From Endozoicomonas sp. (ex Botrylloides leachii) (lineage in GTDB: Bacteria; Pseudomonadota; Gammaproteobacteria; Pseudomonadales; Endozoicomonadaceae): a stretch of 45,554 nt of DNA. Of this stretch, positions 9,268 to 40,512 are shown piece by piece. The translations under genes were made by a program, and so were the position numbers. How positions within the stretch are numbered: the first letter of the stretch is position 1; each line of letters opens with the position of its first letter. Location: assembly GCA_028728195.1 (NCBI GenBank), contig JAQYUY010000087.1:1-45554 (forward strand), given 5' to 3'. Below the pieces are notes generated by a model, which was given only the letters and a program-made list of their open reading frames with translations, was not told the origin of the DNA and did no database searches.

Positions 9268-9609
9268 TTAGAACGTATAGGCTACAAGCCCTACCAATAA
9301 ATGGAGCTTAACGCCACCATACCAGTGTGCTGAAAACTTACCCCTCCTTACTCCATCCCTGAATATTTTATAACGAAGTGCCCAACTTTTTTCACAGACT
9401 GAAATGCCTGTTGAGTCAATATAAGAAGATACCTTACCATATCGTGCCTGAAAAAAAGCTGATAGTACTATAAGTGCTTGCGGTATCAGCTCAATAAACC
9501 GGTTATAACTGACCAGCTCGTGGCAGTGCTCGCGCCAATATTTACAGATATGGTTAATATAAAAATGCTTCAAACAACGATAGCCACTAAGACGCAATAT
9601 GTTGGCCAT
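9268..9609 (-). pseudogene. Truncated IS982-family-like transposase
   Basis: The open part (113 residues) matches the centre of IS982-type DDE transposases: LSGYRCLKHFYINHICKYW, then LVSYNRFIELIPQ, then YIDSTGISVCEKSW containing the first catalytic Asp, then KFSAHWYGGVKLHLLVG. Complete members are about 290 residues, with an N-terminal helical region and a C-terminal half carrying the remaining catalytic acids. Both are missing here: the frame ends right after KLHLLVGLVAYTF and is closed upstream by a stop in the same frame. I did not find intact terminal inverted repeats. This is a dead insertion-sequence remnant; the IS982 assignment comes from remembered motif similarity. Confidence 0.75.
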
Positions 9610-32576: not shown

Positions 32577-32868
32577 CTATCATCTCGAATACTTCTTATA
32601 CTGCTTACCTCCGTTTCTATATCTTAAGCACACAGGCCAACCTCCTTTAGAGTTTGGTCCCAGTCCTTACGCTCGTAACAAGATAATCATCAGCTTGTCA
32701 TTACATTTAAATTAACCTCTTGCCGATAGCCATAACAAGAGGGTTTATTGCAATACCTATTTATACACCAGGATTGTACATACTAAGGGCTATTAGCAAA
32801 GGATTAAGCATTTAGTTTAGCTTTAGCGTGTACAAATAGGACTACACGTAGTGAAAGGAGACACTGTT
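32577..32868. other. Leader region of the sctN-U operon
   Basis: About 290 bp without a gene. A second weaker hairpin, CCTCTTG (32716-32722) with CAAGAGG (32736-32742), precedes GTTTATT. The promoter of the sct operon is expected between there and sctN; I see no confident -10/-35 pair. AAAGGAG at 32854-32860 is the sctN ribosome-binding site. Confidence 0.45.
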
Positions 32869-34200
32869 GTGCCCGATGCTTTTAATTATCTCACCAACGC
32901 TTTGAAAAAAGCTGTGGATGATGCTCCATTGGTTGATATCAGGGGGCGTGTTACCGAGGTAAAAGGCATGATTATCAAAGCTGCCGTGCCTAATGTAAAA
33001 GTGGGTGAACTATGTCGATTGATATCGCCTACAGAAAATAATACGGAGTACGCAGAGGTTGTTGGTTTCCAAGAAAATGAAACAGTGCTTGCTCCCTTAG
33101 GAGAACTAATGGGTATTTCTTCTAGTACGGAGGTAATACCTACTGGCACAGTTCATCACGTCGGGGTAGGCAGTCATTTGCTTGGCCATGTGCTTGATGG
33201 TATGGGTAATCCACTCGATAAACATGCGTTTAATGGCATAGAGCCGGAAACATGGTATCCGGTTTATGCAGAGTCTCCTGATCCAATGAGTCGACAAACT
33301 ATCTCTCAACCTTTACCACTGGGAATTAAAGCATTGGATAGTTTACTAACGTGTGGTGAAGGGCAACGGATGGGTATATTTGCAGCGGCTGGTGGCGGTA
33401 AAAGTACACTGCTTTCTATGCTTGTTAAAGGCGCTGAGGTTGACGTGACTGTTCTGGCTCTAATAGGCGAACGAGGAAGAGAATTACGAGAATTTATCGA
33501 GCATGACTTAGGAGATCAAGGTATAAAAAAATCAGTCATTGTTGTAGCAACGTCTGATAAATCGTCAATGGAGCGCATCAAAGCAGCCTATACAGCGACA
33601 GCCGTTGCTGAGTATTTTAGAGACCGAGGCAAGCGTGTCTTGTTATTGATGGACTCCGTGACTCGTTTTGCTAGAGCCCAGAGAGAAATTGGCCTTGCTG
33701 CAGGAGAACCGCCCACTCGCAGAGGTTTTCCTCCCTCCGTATTTGCTACCTTACCAAAATTAATGGAACGGGCAGGAATGTCTAGTAAGGGTTCTATCAC
33801 AGCCATGTATACCGTACTGGTTGAAGGAGATGATATGACTGAGCCGGTTGCAGATGAAACCCGCTCCATTCTTGATGGTCATATTATTATGTCGCGTAAA
33901 CTGGCAGCCTCCAATCATTATCCAGCCATTGATATCATCGCCAGCACAAGCCGTGTAATGTCTACTATCGTACCAAATGAACACATTATAGCCGCAGGTA
34001 AAATCAGGGAGCTTTTATCGAAATATGACGATATTGAGCTACTTGTAAAAGTAGGTGAATACAAACCAGGCTCTGATCCTGTGGCAGATGAAGCCCTGCA
34101 AAAAATAGCAAGCATCCAAGAATTTTTACGCCAGAGCACCAATGAATATTTTAACTTTGATGACGCTGTCTCTTATTTGCGACAAATTGCAGGTACCTAA
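32869..34200 (+). CDS. sctN: T3SS export ATPase SctN (YscN)
   Basis: 443 residues. Hexameric F1-beta-like ATPase at the cytoplasmic base of the injectisome that strips chaperones and unfolds substrates. N-terminal hexamerisation domain with [11 protein letters not shown], Walker A AAGGGKST (about 173-180), [12 protein letters not shown], Walker [18 protein letters not shown], and AVSYLRQI at the C-terminus. The GTG at 32869 is chosen because AAAGGAG lies 8 nt upstream; a GTG six codons earlier overlaps that site and is unlikely. First gene of sctN-U; its stop TAA overlaps the sctO ATG by one base. Confidence 0.96.
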
Positions 34201-34661
34201 TGCTTCATGACTTGCTAAAAGTTAAAAAAATACGAGAAGAATCTGCTTATCAGAAGGTGCTCCAGTGCAAGCGCTTATTGGCAGAGGCTCAGCAAAAGCA
34301 AAAAGATAAAGAACAAGCCCTAGAAGATTATACTAATTGGCGCTGTAAAGAAGAGCGCACTCTATACGATAACATATTGAATGCAGACGTTCGGCAATAC
34401 GATCTCTGTTTTCTAAAACAGAAAGTAGCCGCTATGAGGGAGAAAGATGCTGAGCTGGAACAGGCCATAGAGATAGCCAAAAACCATGTTGTCGAAACAG
34501 AGCAGCACCTAAAAAACGCAACAGAGGCTTATCATAAGGCCATGCAGGCAGTAAAAAAATTTGAGGAATTTACCAAAGTACTTGATGAAGAAGCCGCTAA
34601 AGAAGCTGAGCGGTTAGAAGACATTGAAATGGAAGAGTTTTCTGTACGTCCAAATCGCTAG
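34200..34661 (+). CDS. sctO: T3SS stalk protein SctO (YscO)
   Basis: 153 residues, almost wholly a charged alpha-helical coiled coil rich in Lys, Glu, Ala and Gln, as in YscO/FliJ. FliJ-like proteins insert in the ATPase ring and link it to the export gate SctV. Sequence conservation in this family is low, so the call rests on size, coiled coil and position between sctN and sctP. Start codon overlaps the sctN stop (TAATG), a reinitiation arrangement. Confidence 0.85.
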   Translation: MLHDLLKVKKIREESAYQKVLQCKRLLAEAQQKQKDKEQALEDYTNWRCKEERTLYDNILNADVRQYDLCFLKQKVAAMREKDAELEQAIEIAKNHVVETEQHLKNATEAYHKAMQAVKKFEEFTKVLDEEAAKEAERLEDIEMEEFSVRPNR

Positions 34662-34682
34662 CGCACTCACTGGAGGCGAACC

Positions 34683-35546
34683 ATGCAAATTGACCAAAAT
34701 TCAAACACACAGAGCCAGCAAAATAATACATCGATTACTGATCAAGCACAGCAGCGACAATCAAGTCAGAAGGTCTCAGAAAATGAAGCTGAAAAGTTTG
34801 CTGATCAACTAAAGAAAAAAGACCAAGCTAATAAACCAAAAAATCACAAAAATGATGAAGAAGAGCAATCGCTAGACAGTATTTTTGCCGAACAAAGTAA
34901 GCATGCTAAAAGCCTGCTTGCTCTTCAAAGCAAAGAGGCCAATCAAGGGACCAATAAGGATAAATTAAATCAATTGCTCAACGGTGAGTTGGAGCGATCT
35001 CTTGCAGACGAAATAAATAAAGATGGCAAGCAGGGGCTTGATGATCAGAAAAACGCTTTAAACTCCCTTGATCATAACAGGTTCAGAGAGCAGATGGATT
35101 CGCCATGGTCTCATATTCAAGATGCTCAATTGAAAGCAGATATGCAAATGAAAGAGATCCAAAAATCACAAAGTATCAAGGCTATTGAGGCTGCATTACA
35201 AAAAATGGCAGATCAAATACATGTATCAGCTAAAGATGCCGTTAATGGTGCAGAAATAAGAATTACAATAAAAGACACTATTCTTCCAGGAACAGAAGTG
35301 CGCATTAACCGCCATGGAGGAGAGCTCACTGTGACCATGAATACCTCGTCGCTAGATTCTCACAACTTTCTAGCGCAACATGCTGCCAGTCTTCAAAAAC
35401 AACTTGATGAACGTTTTTCTACTGAAATAGTTCAGCTCAGCTTAGACATGGCCGGTGATATGAATGATCAAGGCGGTGACAATTCCAGGAATGAGTATGT
35501 TGAAGATGAAACCGTTGATATTGATAGAAAAAATAAACGCATATAG
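34683..35546 (+). CDS. sctP: T3SS needle-length/substrate-switch protein SctP (YscP/HrpP-type)
   Basis: 287 residues; the ATG follows GGAGG. Residues 1-160 are a hydrophilic, Gln/Asn/Lys-rich, probably extended ruler. Residues ~165-257 form a compact C-terminal domain (GAEIRITIKDTILPGTEVRI, then HGGELTVTM, LAQHAASLQKQLDERF) like the FliK/HpaP switch domain that contacts SctU. A loose acidic tail follows. Known members vary greatly in ruler length, which sets needle length. Family recognition comes from the C-terminal domain plus position; the ruler has no alignable motif. Confidence 0.82.
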   Translation: MQIDQNSNTQSQQNNTSITDQAQQRQSSQKVSENEAEKFADQLKKKDQANKPKNHKNDEEEQSLDSIFAEQSKHAKSLLALQSKEANQGTNKDKLNQLLNGELERSLADEINKDGKQGLDDQKNALNSLDHNRFREQMDSPWSHIQDAQLKADMQMKEIQKSQSIKAIEAALQKMADQIHVSAKDAVNGAEIRITIKDTILPGTEVRINRHGGELTVTMNTSSLDSHNFLAQHAASLQKQLDERFSTEIVQLSLDMAGDMNDQGGDNSRNEYVEDETVDIDRKNKRI

Positions 35547-35553
35547 GTAAGGC

Positions 35554-36525
35554 ATGTCAACACAGCCTTTAGAGTTAATAAAACTTACATCTGAGCAGGC
35601 TAAACTCAGTAGAGCGCTATCATGCCTGAAAACAGATTATGAAACCACTATTGCAGGACAAACTGCTCGGTTCACCCTATCGGCAATTAAACAGAGCCAT
35701 GTTTTTAACTATACACTTGAGTTAAATATTAATAATGCGCCAGCAACGATTGAACTGGATGCTCATGCTGTTAACTCCTTTTTACCCGAGCAGCTTAATC
35801 ATGACGTAATCAGCGTATTACCTGATGAATTATTAATGGCTGTTTTACACTATCGCATTGTTCCAATCGCGCAACAAACAGCTCAATTTATTGATATGCC
35901 CATTGAGGTATTAGGTCTAAGACCAAGTAGCACTGGCTCAGTAGATATGGGCCTATTGATATCGGCTAATATTGCAAATATCAATTGTTCTGCACTAATA
36001 GATAACAGTGACGTTATTTTTTCTTTATTCAATGCACTGCCAAGAGCGTATAACCCCGCCATGCAAAATATTCCTGTTCGTGCAGGGATTGAATTAGGTC
36101 GCTCATTATTATCTACCAAAGAAATAAAAGAGTTGGAAACAGGTGATATTATTTTCCTGCAACAACATGTCACTGGTAACCAGATCATTATTCGATTGAA
36201 CCCTCATATCGCATTTATTGCCGAAATGGATGGGGAGCAAGTTACAATTCAACAGAGGATAATCACCATGGATGACGAGCTGAATGAGCATGAAGAAGGC
36301 GTAGACCTTGCTGATTTATCTGTAGAATTACTCTTTGAAATAGGCCGGCAACAATTCAATGCCAGCGATCTAACTGGTCTTAACCCAGGTTTTGTTTTCG
36401 AACTAGACCGGCCTATAGAGCAGCCCGTTCGCATTCGAGCCAATGGAAAGGTCATTGCAGAATGTCAGCTAGTGCAAATAGAAAACCGATTGGGCGCAAA
36501 AATTACTCAATTGAATAAAACATAG
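35554..36525 (+). CDS. sctQ: T3SS cytoplasmic sorting-platform protein SctQ (YscQ)
   Basis: 323 residues. SctQ forms the pods of the sorting platform with SctK and SctL. The N-terminal half is poorly conserved; residues ~165-235 resemble the first SpoA (surface presentation of antigens) domain, and residues ~252-320 are the clear C-terminal SpoA domain (VELLFEIGRQQFNASDLTGL, then RPIEQPVRIRANGKVIAECQLV). An in-frame internal start at 36268 would give this second domain as a separate product. ATG follows AAGG, 7 bp after sctP. Confidence 0.9.
   Translation: MSTQPLELIKLTSEQAKLSRALSCLKTDYETTIAGQTARFTLSAIKQSHVFNYTLELNINNAPATIELDAHAVNSFLPEQLNHDVISVLPDELLMAVLHYRIVPIAQQTAQFIDMPIEVLGLRPSSTGSVDMGLLISANIANINCSALIDNSDVIFSLFNALPRAYNPAMQNIPVRAGIELGRSLLSTKEIKELETGDIIFLQQHVTGNQIIIRLNPHIAFIAEMDGEQVTIQQRIITMDDELNEHEEGVDLADLSVELLFEIGRQQFNASDLTGLNPGFVFELDRPIEQPVRIRANGKVIAECQLVQIENRLGAKITQLNKT
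36268..36525 (+). CDS. Predicted internal-start product SctQ-C
   Basis: An in-frame ATG at codon 239 of sctQ (MDDELNEHEEG) is preceded by AGAGGA (36254-36259) with an 8-nt spacer. It would encode 85 residues carrying only the C-terminal SpoA domain. YscQ-C of Yersinia and SpaO-C of Salmonella arise in the same way and have similar length. Expression is inferred, not shown. Confidence 0.65.
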   Translation: MDDELNEHEEGVDLADLSVELLFEIGRQQFNASDLTGLNPGFVFELDRPIEQPVRIRANGKVIAECQLVQIENRLGAKITQLNKT

Positions 36526-36562
36526 TTAGCTACTGTAGCGCTATAGACCATGGAAGCCGGCA

Positions 36563-37225
36563 ATGGATAGCATTATCACTCTAACAAGTCCGTTTTATCT
36601 GCTACTTCCATTGGCATTGATGTCTCTTATTCCCTTTTTCGCTGTTATGGGCACTTCTTTTTTAAAGCTGGTTGTTGTGTTCTCTATTTTACGCAACGCA
36701 ACTGGTTTGCAGCAGATTCCACCCAATATTGCCATGAATGGCCTTGCGATAATCTTATCGCTTTACATTATGGCGCCTGTAGGCTACCAAGCCAGTGAGA
36801 TTATCAAACAGCATAATCTAAGCTTTACCGTTGAAGATATGTCTTGGGTAGACAGTGTAAAAGCATCTATGGAGCCTTATCGAGAGTTTCTTAAAAAAAA
36901 TACAAATAAGCGCGAGCGTGGATTCTTCCTAAAAACGGCAGGTGCTTTATGGCCAGAAAAATACCGTGCAGAGCTGGATAAAGATGATTTTATAATTTTG
37001 ATGCCAGCCTTTTGTATTTCTGAATTAGCCAAAGCATTTCAAATTGGTTTCTTATTGTATCTACCATTTGTCGTAATTGATTTGATTATCTCCAATATTC
37101 TGTTAGCCATGGGAATGATGATGGTATCACCTATGACGATATCCCTGCCTTTCAAGCTCTTATTATTTGTTATGCTCGATGGCTGGACCCGCCTGACCCA
37201 TGGACTGGTGTTGAGCTATGGTTGA
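36563..37225 (+). CDS. sctR: T3SS export-gate protein SctR (YscR/FliP family)
   Basis: 220 residues (YscR 217). Four-helix inner-membrane protein; five copies assemble with SctS and SctT into the export-gate helix that opens into the needle base. Motifs FLKLVVVFSILRNATGLQQIPPN, MPAFCISELAKAFQIGFLLYLPFVVIDLIISNILLAMGM and VSPMTISLPFKLLLFVMLDGW are diagnostic. Overlaps sctS by 8 nt. Confidence 0.97.
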   Translation: MDSIITLTSPFYLLLPLALMSLIPFFAVMGTSFLKLVVVFSILRNATGLQQIPPNIAMNGLAIILSLYIMAPVGYQASEIIKQHNLSFTVEDMSWVDSVKASMEPYREFLKKNTNKRERGFFLKTAGALWPEKYRAELDKDDFIILMPAFCISELAKAFQIGFLLYLPFVVIDLIISNILLAMGMMMVSPMTISLPFKLLLFVMLDGWTRLTHGLVLSYG

Positions 37226-37481
37226 CCCTGATGTTATCACACTATCAGCTCAAGCATTGATGCTCACACTACTTTTATCAATGCCGCCAATTATTGCAGC
37301 CTCTGCAGTTGGCCTGCTCGTCAGTCTTTTACAAGCTTTAACTCAAATACAAGAGCAAACCTTACCTTTTGCTTTCAAGCTGATTGCCGTCATCATCAGC
37401 ATACTACTCACTGCTAGATGGGTAGGAATAGAAATTTATAATTATTCGCTCACCATCATGAATCAAATTCCGGGACTATAA
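37218..37481 (+). CDS. sctS: T3SS export-gate protein SctS (YscS/FliQ family)
   Basis: 87 residues (YscS 88) with two hydrophobic helices forming a helical hairpin around the SctR5T core. Family features are the first helix LMLTLLLSMPPIIAASAVGL, VSLLQALTQIQEQTLPFAFKL between helices, and an N-terminal MVDPDVITLSAQAL. It starts inside sctR and ends one base before sctT, so the trio is translationally coupled. Confidence 0.96.
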   Translation: MVDPDVITLSAQALMLTLLLSMPPIIAASAVGLLVSLLQALTQIQEQTLPFAFKLIAVIISILLTARWVGIEIYNYSLTIMNQIPGL

Positions 37482-38273
37482 ATGATGCTACCGGTCAATG
37501 AACTAAAAGACTGGTTTTATGTACTGAGCATGGGGTTGCCTAGGTTATTAGCAATGTTTACTGTTCTGCCCATGCTCCATAAAAAAATTCTTGGTGGTAC
37601 CATGATCAGGAATGGTATCTGTATGTGCTTGGTTCTATTTTTACATCCTTTGATTGCCGACAGTAAACCTGATGAATCTATTCCTATCTTTGTAACAGCA
37701 GGCATTGTGCTAAAGGAAGTTTTCATTGGGGCACTGATGGGCTTTTGTATAGCTATTCCATTCTGGGCATTGGAGTCAGCCGGTTTTTTTATTGATAACC
37801 AACGTGGTGCCTCTATGGCCAGTGTAATGAATCCCTTTTCTGGCTCAGAAACCTCATCTCTTGGATTACTGTTTTCACAGGCTTTTATTGCTCTTGTAAT
37901 GACCAGTGGTCTCTTTTTACTCTTATTAAAAAATCTATTCCTCAGTTATGAGACATGGCCAGTATTTAGTTATTATCCCGAACTCAATATGAAAGCGACA
38001 CTATTCTTCCTTGGTCAGTTTGACCTCATTGTTAGCCTCTGCATGTGGCTTTCTGCACCTGTAGTCATTTCAATGTTCATAACCGAATTTGGTATTGCGC
38101 TAATTAGCCGCTCAGCACCGCAACTTAATGTATTCATTCTTGCTATGCCAATTAAAAGTGGTGTGGCCGCAGCCATTTTAGTAATTTACGTGGGAACAAT
38201 AATGGTACTATCTCGTCAACATTTGATGGATATGGGCAGCTTGTTTAAAAGCTTGGGGATACTCTGGCAATGA
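37482..38273 (+). CDS. sctT: T3SS export-gate protein SctT (YscT/FliR family)
   Basis: 263 residues (YscT 261), with about six or seven hydrophobic segments. FliR-like motifs include GLPRLLAMFTVLPML, IVLKEVFIGALMGF and FFIDNQRGASMASVMNPFSGSETSSLGLLF. SctT is the single-copy subunit of the export-gate helix. It overlaps sctU by 4 nt (ATGA). Confidence 0.96.
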   Translation: MMLPVNELKDWFYVLSMGLPRLLAMFTVLPMLHKKILGGTMIRNGICMCLVLFLHPLIADSKPDESIPIFVTAGIVLKEVFIGALMGFCIAIPFWALESAGFFIDNQRGASMASVMNPFSGSETSSLGLLFSQAFIALVMTSGLFLLLLKNLFLSYETWPVFSYYPELNMKATLFFLGQFDLIVSLCMWLSAPVVISMFITEFGIALISRSAPQLNVFILAMPIKSGVAAAILVIYVGTIMVLSRQHLMDMGSLFKSLGILWQ

Positions 38274-39319
38274 GTGCTGAAAAAACCGAAGAGCCCACCC
38301 CGAAAAAATTGCGCGATGCTCGAAAAAAAGGTCAGGTTGCTAAAAGCAAGGAAGTATCAGGTACATTTGGATTAATTGCTGTACTGATTACGCTATGGAT
38401 TATGGGGAGCATGCTGATGGAAAGCATTGAGCAGATGCTCTTATTTCCAGCTAAAGTCTATAATGAAAATTTTGATTTTGCTCTAAAAGTAGTCGTTACT
38501 GGCATACTTGATGAATTTATTTTCCTATTACTACCGCTGGTTTTGGTGGCTATGTTTTCAGCCATTATAGGCAATGCTATGCAATTTGGCCTGCTATTTT
38601 CCTCAGAATCTATTAAACCAGATATTAAAAAAATTGACCCTATTCAAGGGGCAAAAAAAATATTCTCCATGAAAAATCTAGTAGAATTTTTCAAATCTAT
38701 TTTCAAAATAATTTTCCTATCTTTTGTTGTATATTACGTTATTAGTACCAGCATGAAAGATATGGTCAACATTCCTTATTGTGGTTCTAAATGCATACTC
38801 CCTGTAGCAGGGGAAGTGATGAAGCAACTTCTGCTTTATTCTGTTGCTGCTTTTATAGCCATTGCTGTGTTGGATTATTTATTCGAACGTCATAATTTCA
38901 TGAAACAACAGCGTATGACTAAAGATGAGGTAAAAAGAGAATATAAAGAAATGGAAGGAAGCCCTGAGATAAAAAGCAAGCGAAAAGAAATCCATCAGGA
39001 AATTCTGAATTCTGCGGATAATACTAAAAAATCAGATGTTGTCATTAAAAACCCAACACATCTTGCCATTGGATTGCATTACCGCCAAAAAAGTACGCCA
39101 TTACCGGTTATTATGGTTAAAGGGAGAGGCGCTCATGCGCGGTTTATTGTCAAGGTTGCAGAAAAAGAAGGCATCCCTGTGCTAGAAAACGTTCCTTTGG
39201 CTCATGCACTATTTGATGTGGATATTGCTGCTTATATTCCTAGTGAGCTAATCGAGCCTGTTGCCGAAGTATTCCGATGGGTTCAGGAAACCAAAGAAGA
39301 AGAAAAATACCAAGACTGA
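38270..39319 (+). CDS. sctU: T3SS switch protein SctU (YscU/FlhB family)
   Basis: 349 residues (YscU 354). N-terminal MSAEKTEEPTPKKLRDARKKGQVAKSKE motif, four membrane helices (~33-205), then a cytoplasmic autoprotease domain. The self-cleavage site NPTH is intact at 261-264, as required for the early-to-late substrate switch controlled by SctP. Highly basic linker DEVKREYKEMEGSPEIKSKRKE. Last gene of the operon; convergent with the dioxygenase gene. Confidence 0.97.
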   Translation: MSAEKTEEPTPKKLRDARKKGQVAKSKEVSGTFGLIAVLITLWIMGSMLMESIEQMLLFPAKVYNENFDFALKVVVTGILDEFIFLLLPLVLVAMFSAIIGNAMQFGLLFSSESIKPDIKKIDPIQGAKKIFSMKNLVEFFKSIFKIIFLSFVVYYVISTSMKDMVNIPYCGSKCILPVAGEVMKQLLLYSVAAFIAIAVLDYLFERHNFMKQQRMTKDEVKREYKEMEGSPEIKSKRKEIHQEILNSADNTKKSDVVIKNPTHLAIGLHYRQKSTPLPVIMVKGRGAHARFIVKVAEKEGIPVLENVPLAHALFDVDIAAYIPSELIEPVAEVFRWVQETKEEEKYQD

Positions 39320-39537: not shown

Positions 39538-40512
39538 TTATTTATTCCAATACTTAAGACCTAATAGCTTCTCTCCCAAAGAAGATAGCTTAGCGGTGCT
39601 ATAGCGTGTTTGCTCTAAGCGTCGAGGGTCACCGGGAAAAGCATGACCTTCTGGTGCGACTCTGTTCTTCCATGAGTTGATTCGCCACTGCCGCATAGGT
39701 TGGTTGTTTTCTTCCGCTGGCATCATTGAAATATACTGAGCAATACGCACCTTGTTTTTCGATCGATTAGCACGAATACCATGTGGTTGACTTGAATTAA
39801 ATATCAACAAATCACCCGCCTCAAGCTTAACCTTCTCAATCTTATCTTCCAAGCCAGTGATGTCTGGTTTGAAATGATCACGATCTTTAGGCTGAGTAAG
39901 TTTCCAGCTATCATACGTACGATAAAGTTCAGGGATACATTGAAATCCGCCCATATTTTCGTCGGTTTGGTCATTAAGCGCCAGAACGCCCTGCACATTT
40001 TGAGGCTTAGTATCCGGATCATAATCCCAGTGGATAAAACTTTTGTATTCAAAGCCTGGGCGCAAAGGGAAATTAAGATTTGCGCGATCAATAGTGCACC
40101 ATAATGCTTCTACTCCCCAGATATCGACAAAAGCATCATACACTCTTGGGCTCTGGCGGTTATTCCAAAGTAATTGATGATTGTAGACTTCAACCATACC
40201 GGTACCAACCAACTCTTTCATATCTGCTTCAGCACGCTCTTTGGTATACCAAGTCAGGGGGTCATTTTTATTTTTATCTTCAAATGTCCAAATAAAATCT
40301 CCCGTTTCTAGTGCTTGCTCCCGAGGAACGGCTTGCTTAATCACAATATAACCGTTATGAAGCCAAAATGCCCAGTCATCTTCACTTAAAACACGCAGTG
40401 GCTTTCCGTTAGAACGATCGTTTAATTTAATTTTACTGGATGTGGCTAGTGAAGGATTTCCAGGTATTTCTTTATGATTCTCATTAGGGTTTTTTGCTAC
40501 TTCAGTACCCAT
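39538..40512 (-). CDS. Phytanoyl-CoA dioxygenase (PhyH) family Fe(II)/2-oxoglutarate oxygenase
   Basis: 324 residues. The double-stranded beta-helix core carries the facial triad: HWD (His161 and Asp163) and distal His244 in SQPHGIRAN, with Arg residues in NRSKNKVRIAQY for the 2-oxoglutarate carboxylate. About 40 polar residues (Asn, Lys, Pro, Ser) precede the fold. The family hydroxylates lipids, amino acids, ectoine or natural products; I cannot say which, and ectoine hydroxylase-specific context (ectABC) is absent. Convergent with sctU, dnaE upstream in the same orientation. ATG at 40510-40512 follows a weak AAAGAGGG-like site (GGAAAAGAGGGCAG) with acceptable spacing. Confidence 0.82.
   Translation of the reverse strand: MGTEVAKNPNENHKEIPGNPSLATSSKIKLNDRSNGKPLRVLSEDDWAFWLHNGYIVIKQAVPREQALETGDFIWTFEDKNKNDPLTWYTKERAEADMKELVGTGMVEVYNHQLLWNNRQSPRVYDAFVDIWGVEALWCTIDRANLNFPLRPGFEYKSFIHWDYDPDTKPQNVQGVLALNDQTDENMGGFQCIPELYRTYDSWKLTQPKDRDHFKPDITGLEDKIEKVKLEAGDLLIFNSSQPHGIRANRSKNKVRIAQYISMMPAEENNQPMRQWRINSWKNRVAPEGHAFPGDPRRLEQTRYSTAKLSSLGEKLLGLKYWNK

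Follow-up and report, generated by a model that had tools for sequence, protein, structure and literature searches.

A conserved internal start codon predicts a second, SpoA-only product of sctQ in Endozoicomonas and its family

Short SctQ products in described injectisomes

Internal starts in sctQ genes have been described, in the literature that we could find, only for Yersinia, Salmonella, Shigella, and Xanthomonas, most subscription journals being outside our coverage; our comparison with the internal starts of these known pathogens is drawn from the published papers. In Salmonella, the short form SsaQ-S is not essential. In Yersinia, YscQ-C is a proven product that starts at Met218 of YscQ, and the M218A change abolishes both secretion and C-ring foci (PMC4295842). 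Shigella Spa33-C forms a 1:2 heterotrimer with the full-length protein and is largely needed (PMC8211105). SpaO-short of Salmonella SPI-1 forms a 2:1 complex with SpaO, in which it docks on the SpaO N terminus, and translocation without it is about 5-fold lower but not abolished (PMC13059759). Xanthomonas HrcQ-C, which belongs to a plant-pathogen Hrp system, starts at an ATG at codon 211 with a GAGG 11 nt upstream and is called accessory because higher expression makes up for its loss (PMC8553256).

The loss phenotypes of the Salmonella and Shigella short forms range from mild to complete. The first-pass annotation of the DNA discussed here had stated that such short forms are needed for the sorting platform; this holds for Yersinia and largely for Shigella, whereas Salmonella and Xanthomonas partly tolerate the loss (PMC4295842, PMC8211105, PMC13059759, PMC8553256), and the word “needed” is therefore true of some systems only. 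A SpoA-only partner of a larger SpoA protein is also found in flagellar FliM/FliN and in Pseudomonas syringae HrcQb, where the partner comes from a separate gene rather than from an internal start.

An internal start signal in sctQ

The window, by which we mean the whole stretch of 45,554 nucleotides that was analyzed, carries sctQ at positions 35554 to 36525 (+), within a run of sctN-O-P-Q-R-S-T-U (32851 to 39319, +) that was recognized by family searches and gene order, with sctS and sctT named by their order and length within the run. The 323-aa product, the full-length sorting-platform pod or C-ring protein, matches Pfam FliMN_C and the NCBIfam equivalog model TIGR02551 SpaO_YscQ (1.6e-31; 110.3 bits against a cut-off of 100.8), and this score, together with a type III secretion neighborhood of sctN, sctO, and sctP upstream and sctR and sctU downstream, places it in the SctQ family. 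It comprises a SpoA1-like domain with a weak PF01052 match (36061 to 36225, +; 4.0e-5, 25 bits), an acidic linker of residues 241 to 249 (36274 to 36300, +), and a SpoA2 domain of residues 252 to 320 (36307 to 36513, +; PF01052).

Ahead of SpoA2, positions 36254 to 36270 read AGAGGA-TAATCACC-ATG, that is, a Shine-Dalgarno (SD)-like hexamer (36254 to 36259, +; anti-SD duplex of -5.8 kcal/mol), a spacer of 8 nt, and an in-frame ATG (36268 to 36270, +) that is codon 239 of the 323. The core of the hexamer is the AGG codon of Arg235 (36256 to 36258, +), and none of the other five internal in-frame ATGs in the gene has so strong a duplex. Initiation here would yield a protein of 85 aa, SctQ-C (36268 to 36525, +, stop codon included), that begins MDDELNEHEEG and consists of SpoA2 only. 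The hexamer, the spacing, the in-frame ATG at codon 239, and the 85 residues had been given in the first-pass annotation and are exact on rereading of the sequence. Its description of the product as SpoA only also stands, given that the 85 aa hold one whole SpoA domain (PF01052 positions 3 to 71 of 73, E value of 4.2e-18; FliMN_C/SpoA in Pfam), spanning residues 14 to 82.

Taken in one sequence, the motif is weak. The genes of the window hold 301 internal in-frame ATGs, of which 11 (about 4%) have a 4-base SD core at 4 to 10 nt and 5 a 5-base core. As SctQ has six internal Mets, simple arithmetic puts the chance of one such pair at about 20%. When the window sctQ alone was shuffled synonymously within the gene, the same anti-SD energy arose in 2.1% of cases (P = 0.021). 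Thus, the case had to be decided by conservation.

Conservation of the start and of its ribosome-binding site

A protein search of relatives and the family found sctQ in all 37 of the family genomes, and, once further regions had been added, 38 sctQ genes from these 37 genomes, with 21 to 48% protein identity to the window SctQ, were aligned. Codon 239 is Met (ATG) in all 38, even at 21% identity, and it is the sole invariant Met of the window SctQ; each of the other internal Mets is shared by 1 to 6 of the 38. Met239 lies at the end of SpoA1, within the linker, and the flanking columns of the alignment are variable. In the 27 closer homologues, which represent four genera, AGG occupies -12 to -10 without exception (12 of 12 in genus g7 and 10 of 10 in g6), while it makes up 39 of the 349 remaining Arg codons of the same genes (11%), and the other conserved Arg columns have mixed codons in which AGG is rare. 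The first-pass annotation had named loss of the SD/ATG pair in close relatives as grounds for refutation; the comparison shows the opposite: both the start and its SD are kept beyond what amino acid constraint would ask for.

The ten distant sctQ genes (genera g2, g3, g5, and g8) keep the ATG, with a different preceding sequence and different amino acids; most have a GGAG or GGAGG core 5 to 6 nt upstream, and the rest have weaker or worse-placed signals. Four family members (L028, L029, L030, and L037) have a weak SD of -3.0 to -3.2 kcal/mol. When the synonymous shuffles are combined across the family, Fisher P values are 1e-3 for 13 representatives below 50% identity and 1e-4 for 19 representatives below 70% identity. 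Conservation lifts the SD/ATG pair well above chance.

As a control, we compared every internal in-frame ATG of sctN-O-P-Q-R-S-T-U, 76 in total, in up to ten relatives. The sctQ site alone combines Met in all relatives with an SD of -4.5 kcal/mol or stronger in 9 of 10. Some pairs in sctN, sctP, and sctU look stronger, but their SD is not retained among these relatives. Two sctN ATGs, at 33109 and 33835 (codons 87 and 329), each have AGGAG 5 nt upstream and in the window genome look stronger than the sctQ site; we considered them as further internal starts and set them aside, the SD being kept in only 1 of 10 and 3 of 10 relatives, respectively. The runner-up in the control is codon 41 of sctT (37602 to 37604), with Met in 8 of 8 and an SD in 6 of 8, where the SD likeness is probably due to conserved Gly codons ahead of the Met.

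A search for related loci gave a single distant match. Outside the family, seven genes in a class sample of 369 genomes score over the SctQ model cut-off. An ATG stands exactly at the aligned position in six of the seven; two of these have strong SDs, and three (L068, L071, and L072) have weak ones, so that the sample is better evidence for the ATG than for the SD. In the remaining gene, a GTG preceded by GGAGG lies seven codons upstream.

The predicted product and the openness of its start

In an AlphaFold2 model of SctQ (m95633dbd5709; mean predicted local distance difference test [pLDDT] score of 81), the pTM of 0.50 leaves the domain arrangement uncertain. The final SpoA1 strand covers residues 229 to 237, and Met239 follows this strand, ahead of a linker that is predicted to be disordered (pLDDT below 50), after which SpoA2 begins. 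Foldseek matches are FliM-FliN SpoA fusions, FliN, YscQ-C, HrcQb, Spa33, and the SpoA2 domain of SpaO, and the nearest solved chain is YscQ-C (3uep_A; 6.1e-14), aligned from SctQ residue 240. The predicted product contains one whole SpoA domain, with homology to YscQ-C. Modeled alone as a monomer, SctQ-C gives a poor AlphaFold model (pLDDT of 60) that does not confirm the fold of the product by itself; this would be expected of an intertwined dimer, yet a poor model lends no support to one.

How does this locus compare with the described systems? As in Yersinia, the ATG lies at the SpoA1-SpoA2 boundary, YscQ-C is the nearest structure, and the genome encodes Ysc-type partners. In contrast, the overall kinship to YscQ is distant, whole-protein phmmer reaches YscQ-C over the C-terminal part only, and YscQ-C is proven, whereas SctQ-C here is a prediction from sequence. 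Salmonella SpaO-short and SsaQ-S and Shigella Spa33-C are likewise C-terminal SpoA2 products of internal starts, and the Salmonella and Shigella short forms enter 2:1 complexes with the full-length protein (PMC13059759, PMC8211105); SpaO-short has 101 aa and starts from GTG203, compared with 85 aa from an ATG in the prediction made here. Xanthomonas HrcQ-C also starts at an internal ATG that follows an SD of the GAGG type and precedes a C-terminal SpoA domain (PMC8553256), in a system that, unlike the one here, is of the Hrp type and in which the short form is accessory under high expression. FliM/FliN and HrcQb have matching folds.

RNA folding around the internal start gave no signal (z = 0.09). 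The predicted mean unpaired probability is 0.32 at the internal start versus 0.56 at the main start, and 86% of sampled background sites are predicted to be at least as open as the internal start region. In terms of SD strength, the internal site equals or exceeds the main one in 31 of 38 genes; most closer homologues have a weak main SD. The main sctQ start may be coupled to translation of sctP. We speculate, tentatively and with the odds rather against it, that the balance between the internal and main starts sets a 2:1 SctQ-C:SctQ pod ratio by translation and that this is an ancient trait of single-gene sctQ; a 2:1 output would fit the SD strengths, but given the lower accessibility and the possible coupling to sctP, we keep it as a hypothesis.

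A probable two-product gene and rival readings

We posit that sctQ is very probably a two-product gene that makes SctQ-C by internal initiation, as Yersinia yscQ does. The observed basis is the signal itself, kept in spite of synonymous drift and placed at a domain boundary, together with the kinship of the product to YscQ-C and the presence of the partner genes. Initiation at 35554 would give full-length SctQ, while other ribosomes would initiate at the AGAGGA/ATG of the same mRNA and make the 85-residue SpoA2 protein. By analogy with YscQ-C, Spa33-C, and SpaO-short, two intertwined copies of SctQ-C would then join a single full-length SctQ (2:1), and this homodimer would stabilize SctQ and help build the cytosolic sorting-platform pods with SctK, SctL, and SctN. 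Translation from codon 239, dimerization, stoichiometry, and role are all inferred.

Could the same pattern arise without a second protein? One account is that Met239 and Arg235 serve the full-length protein, in structure or binding at the SpoA1-SpoA2 junction, and that the SD-like AGG is incidental. Arg235 is kept in 30 of 38 genes, which does imply some protein constraint on this residue; still, the synonymous choice of AGG in every closer homologue is beyond the reach of such constraint, some distant sctQ genes lack the Arg yet have another purine-rich SD ahead of the conserved ATG, and the linker is predicted to be disordered and varies in its other columns. We regard this account as unlikely. 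Less likely again is a programmed ribosome pause at the SD-like AGG, which would let SpoA1 fold before SpoA2, with no separate protein made: the site does lie at a domain boundary, where a pause could aid folding, but a pause leaves unexplained both the invariant ATG, whose distance from the SD is 5 to 9 nt in the majority of the 38 genes, across two divergent sctQ groups, and the homology to proven internal starts (PMC4295842, PMC8553256). That the pair is a functionless accident is the least credible reading of all; the frequency of comparable motifs in the window and the shuffle of the window gene alone would leave room for it, and conservation in 37 genomes and the 76-ATG control contradict it.

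If sctQ is such a two-product gene, it adds a new and well-supported case to a known kind, already described from Yersinia, Salmonella, Shigella, and Xanthomonas. Our literature search, with most subscription journals outside its coverage, found no account of this sctQ example, of its family-wide conservation, or of SctQ internal starts in marine bacteria. On this comparative evidence, an arrangement established in a handful of pathogens of animals and plants would extend to a whole family beyond the model genera, SctQ-C is arguably a conserved injectisome part and not a peculiarity of model pathogens, and annotation of one protein per gene would overlook the predicted product in each of the 37 family genomes searched.

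The injectisome in its genome

The genome (2.64 Mb in 165 contigs, rated 100% complete) carries the core injectisome genes over four contigs: SctV and SctC on C96; SctJ, SctK, SctL, and an SctI-like protein on C48; SctD and SctF on C3; and SctN to SctU on the window contig, C152. The matched frames are without internal stops, and the apparatus therefore looks intact. The first-pass annotation had read the internal start as a sign of a functional, not decayed, injectisome; that reading draws better support from the core genes elsewhere in the genome, which are intact, than from the internal start by itself. SycN, TyeA, SctK/YscK, and a YscX-like protein slightly under its cut-off are also encoded and point to an injectisome of the Ysc type. 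Flagellar FliM/FliN-like and FlhA-like genes are present separately.

Several minor observations were made along the way. On C48 (L060, 7240 to 8954), the gatekeeper is seemingly split, with a TyeA-like protein of 261 aa that has a long N-terminal extension and, upstream of its gene and at the expected YopN-like place, a separate 290-aa open reading frame (ORF) with no convincing family match. In G002, a relative of the same genus, there is a second sctQ, divergent at 21% identity (L042, 565 to 1605); it too has the internal ATG, with AAGGA at 6 nt before it, and points to a second injectisome there. In two relatives, SpoA-only ORFs of 120 aa (L046, 334 to 696) and 102 aa (L047, 1177 to 1485) were considered as a split SctQ of the HrcQa/HrcQb type and rejected, as they are more likely flagellar FliN, judging from FliO downstream of the one in L047 and strong FliMN_C matches in both; the two genes adjoin a FliM-like ORF and perhaps belong to a second flagellar system. 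In the window, an ORF at 39538 to 40512 (-) that by eye resembles a phytanoyl-CoA dioxygenase-type enzyme adjoins sctU, convergent with the injectisome operon, and a 113-aa ORF at 9268 to 9609 (-) resembles, also by eye, a fragment of an IS transposase.
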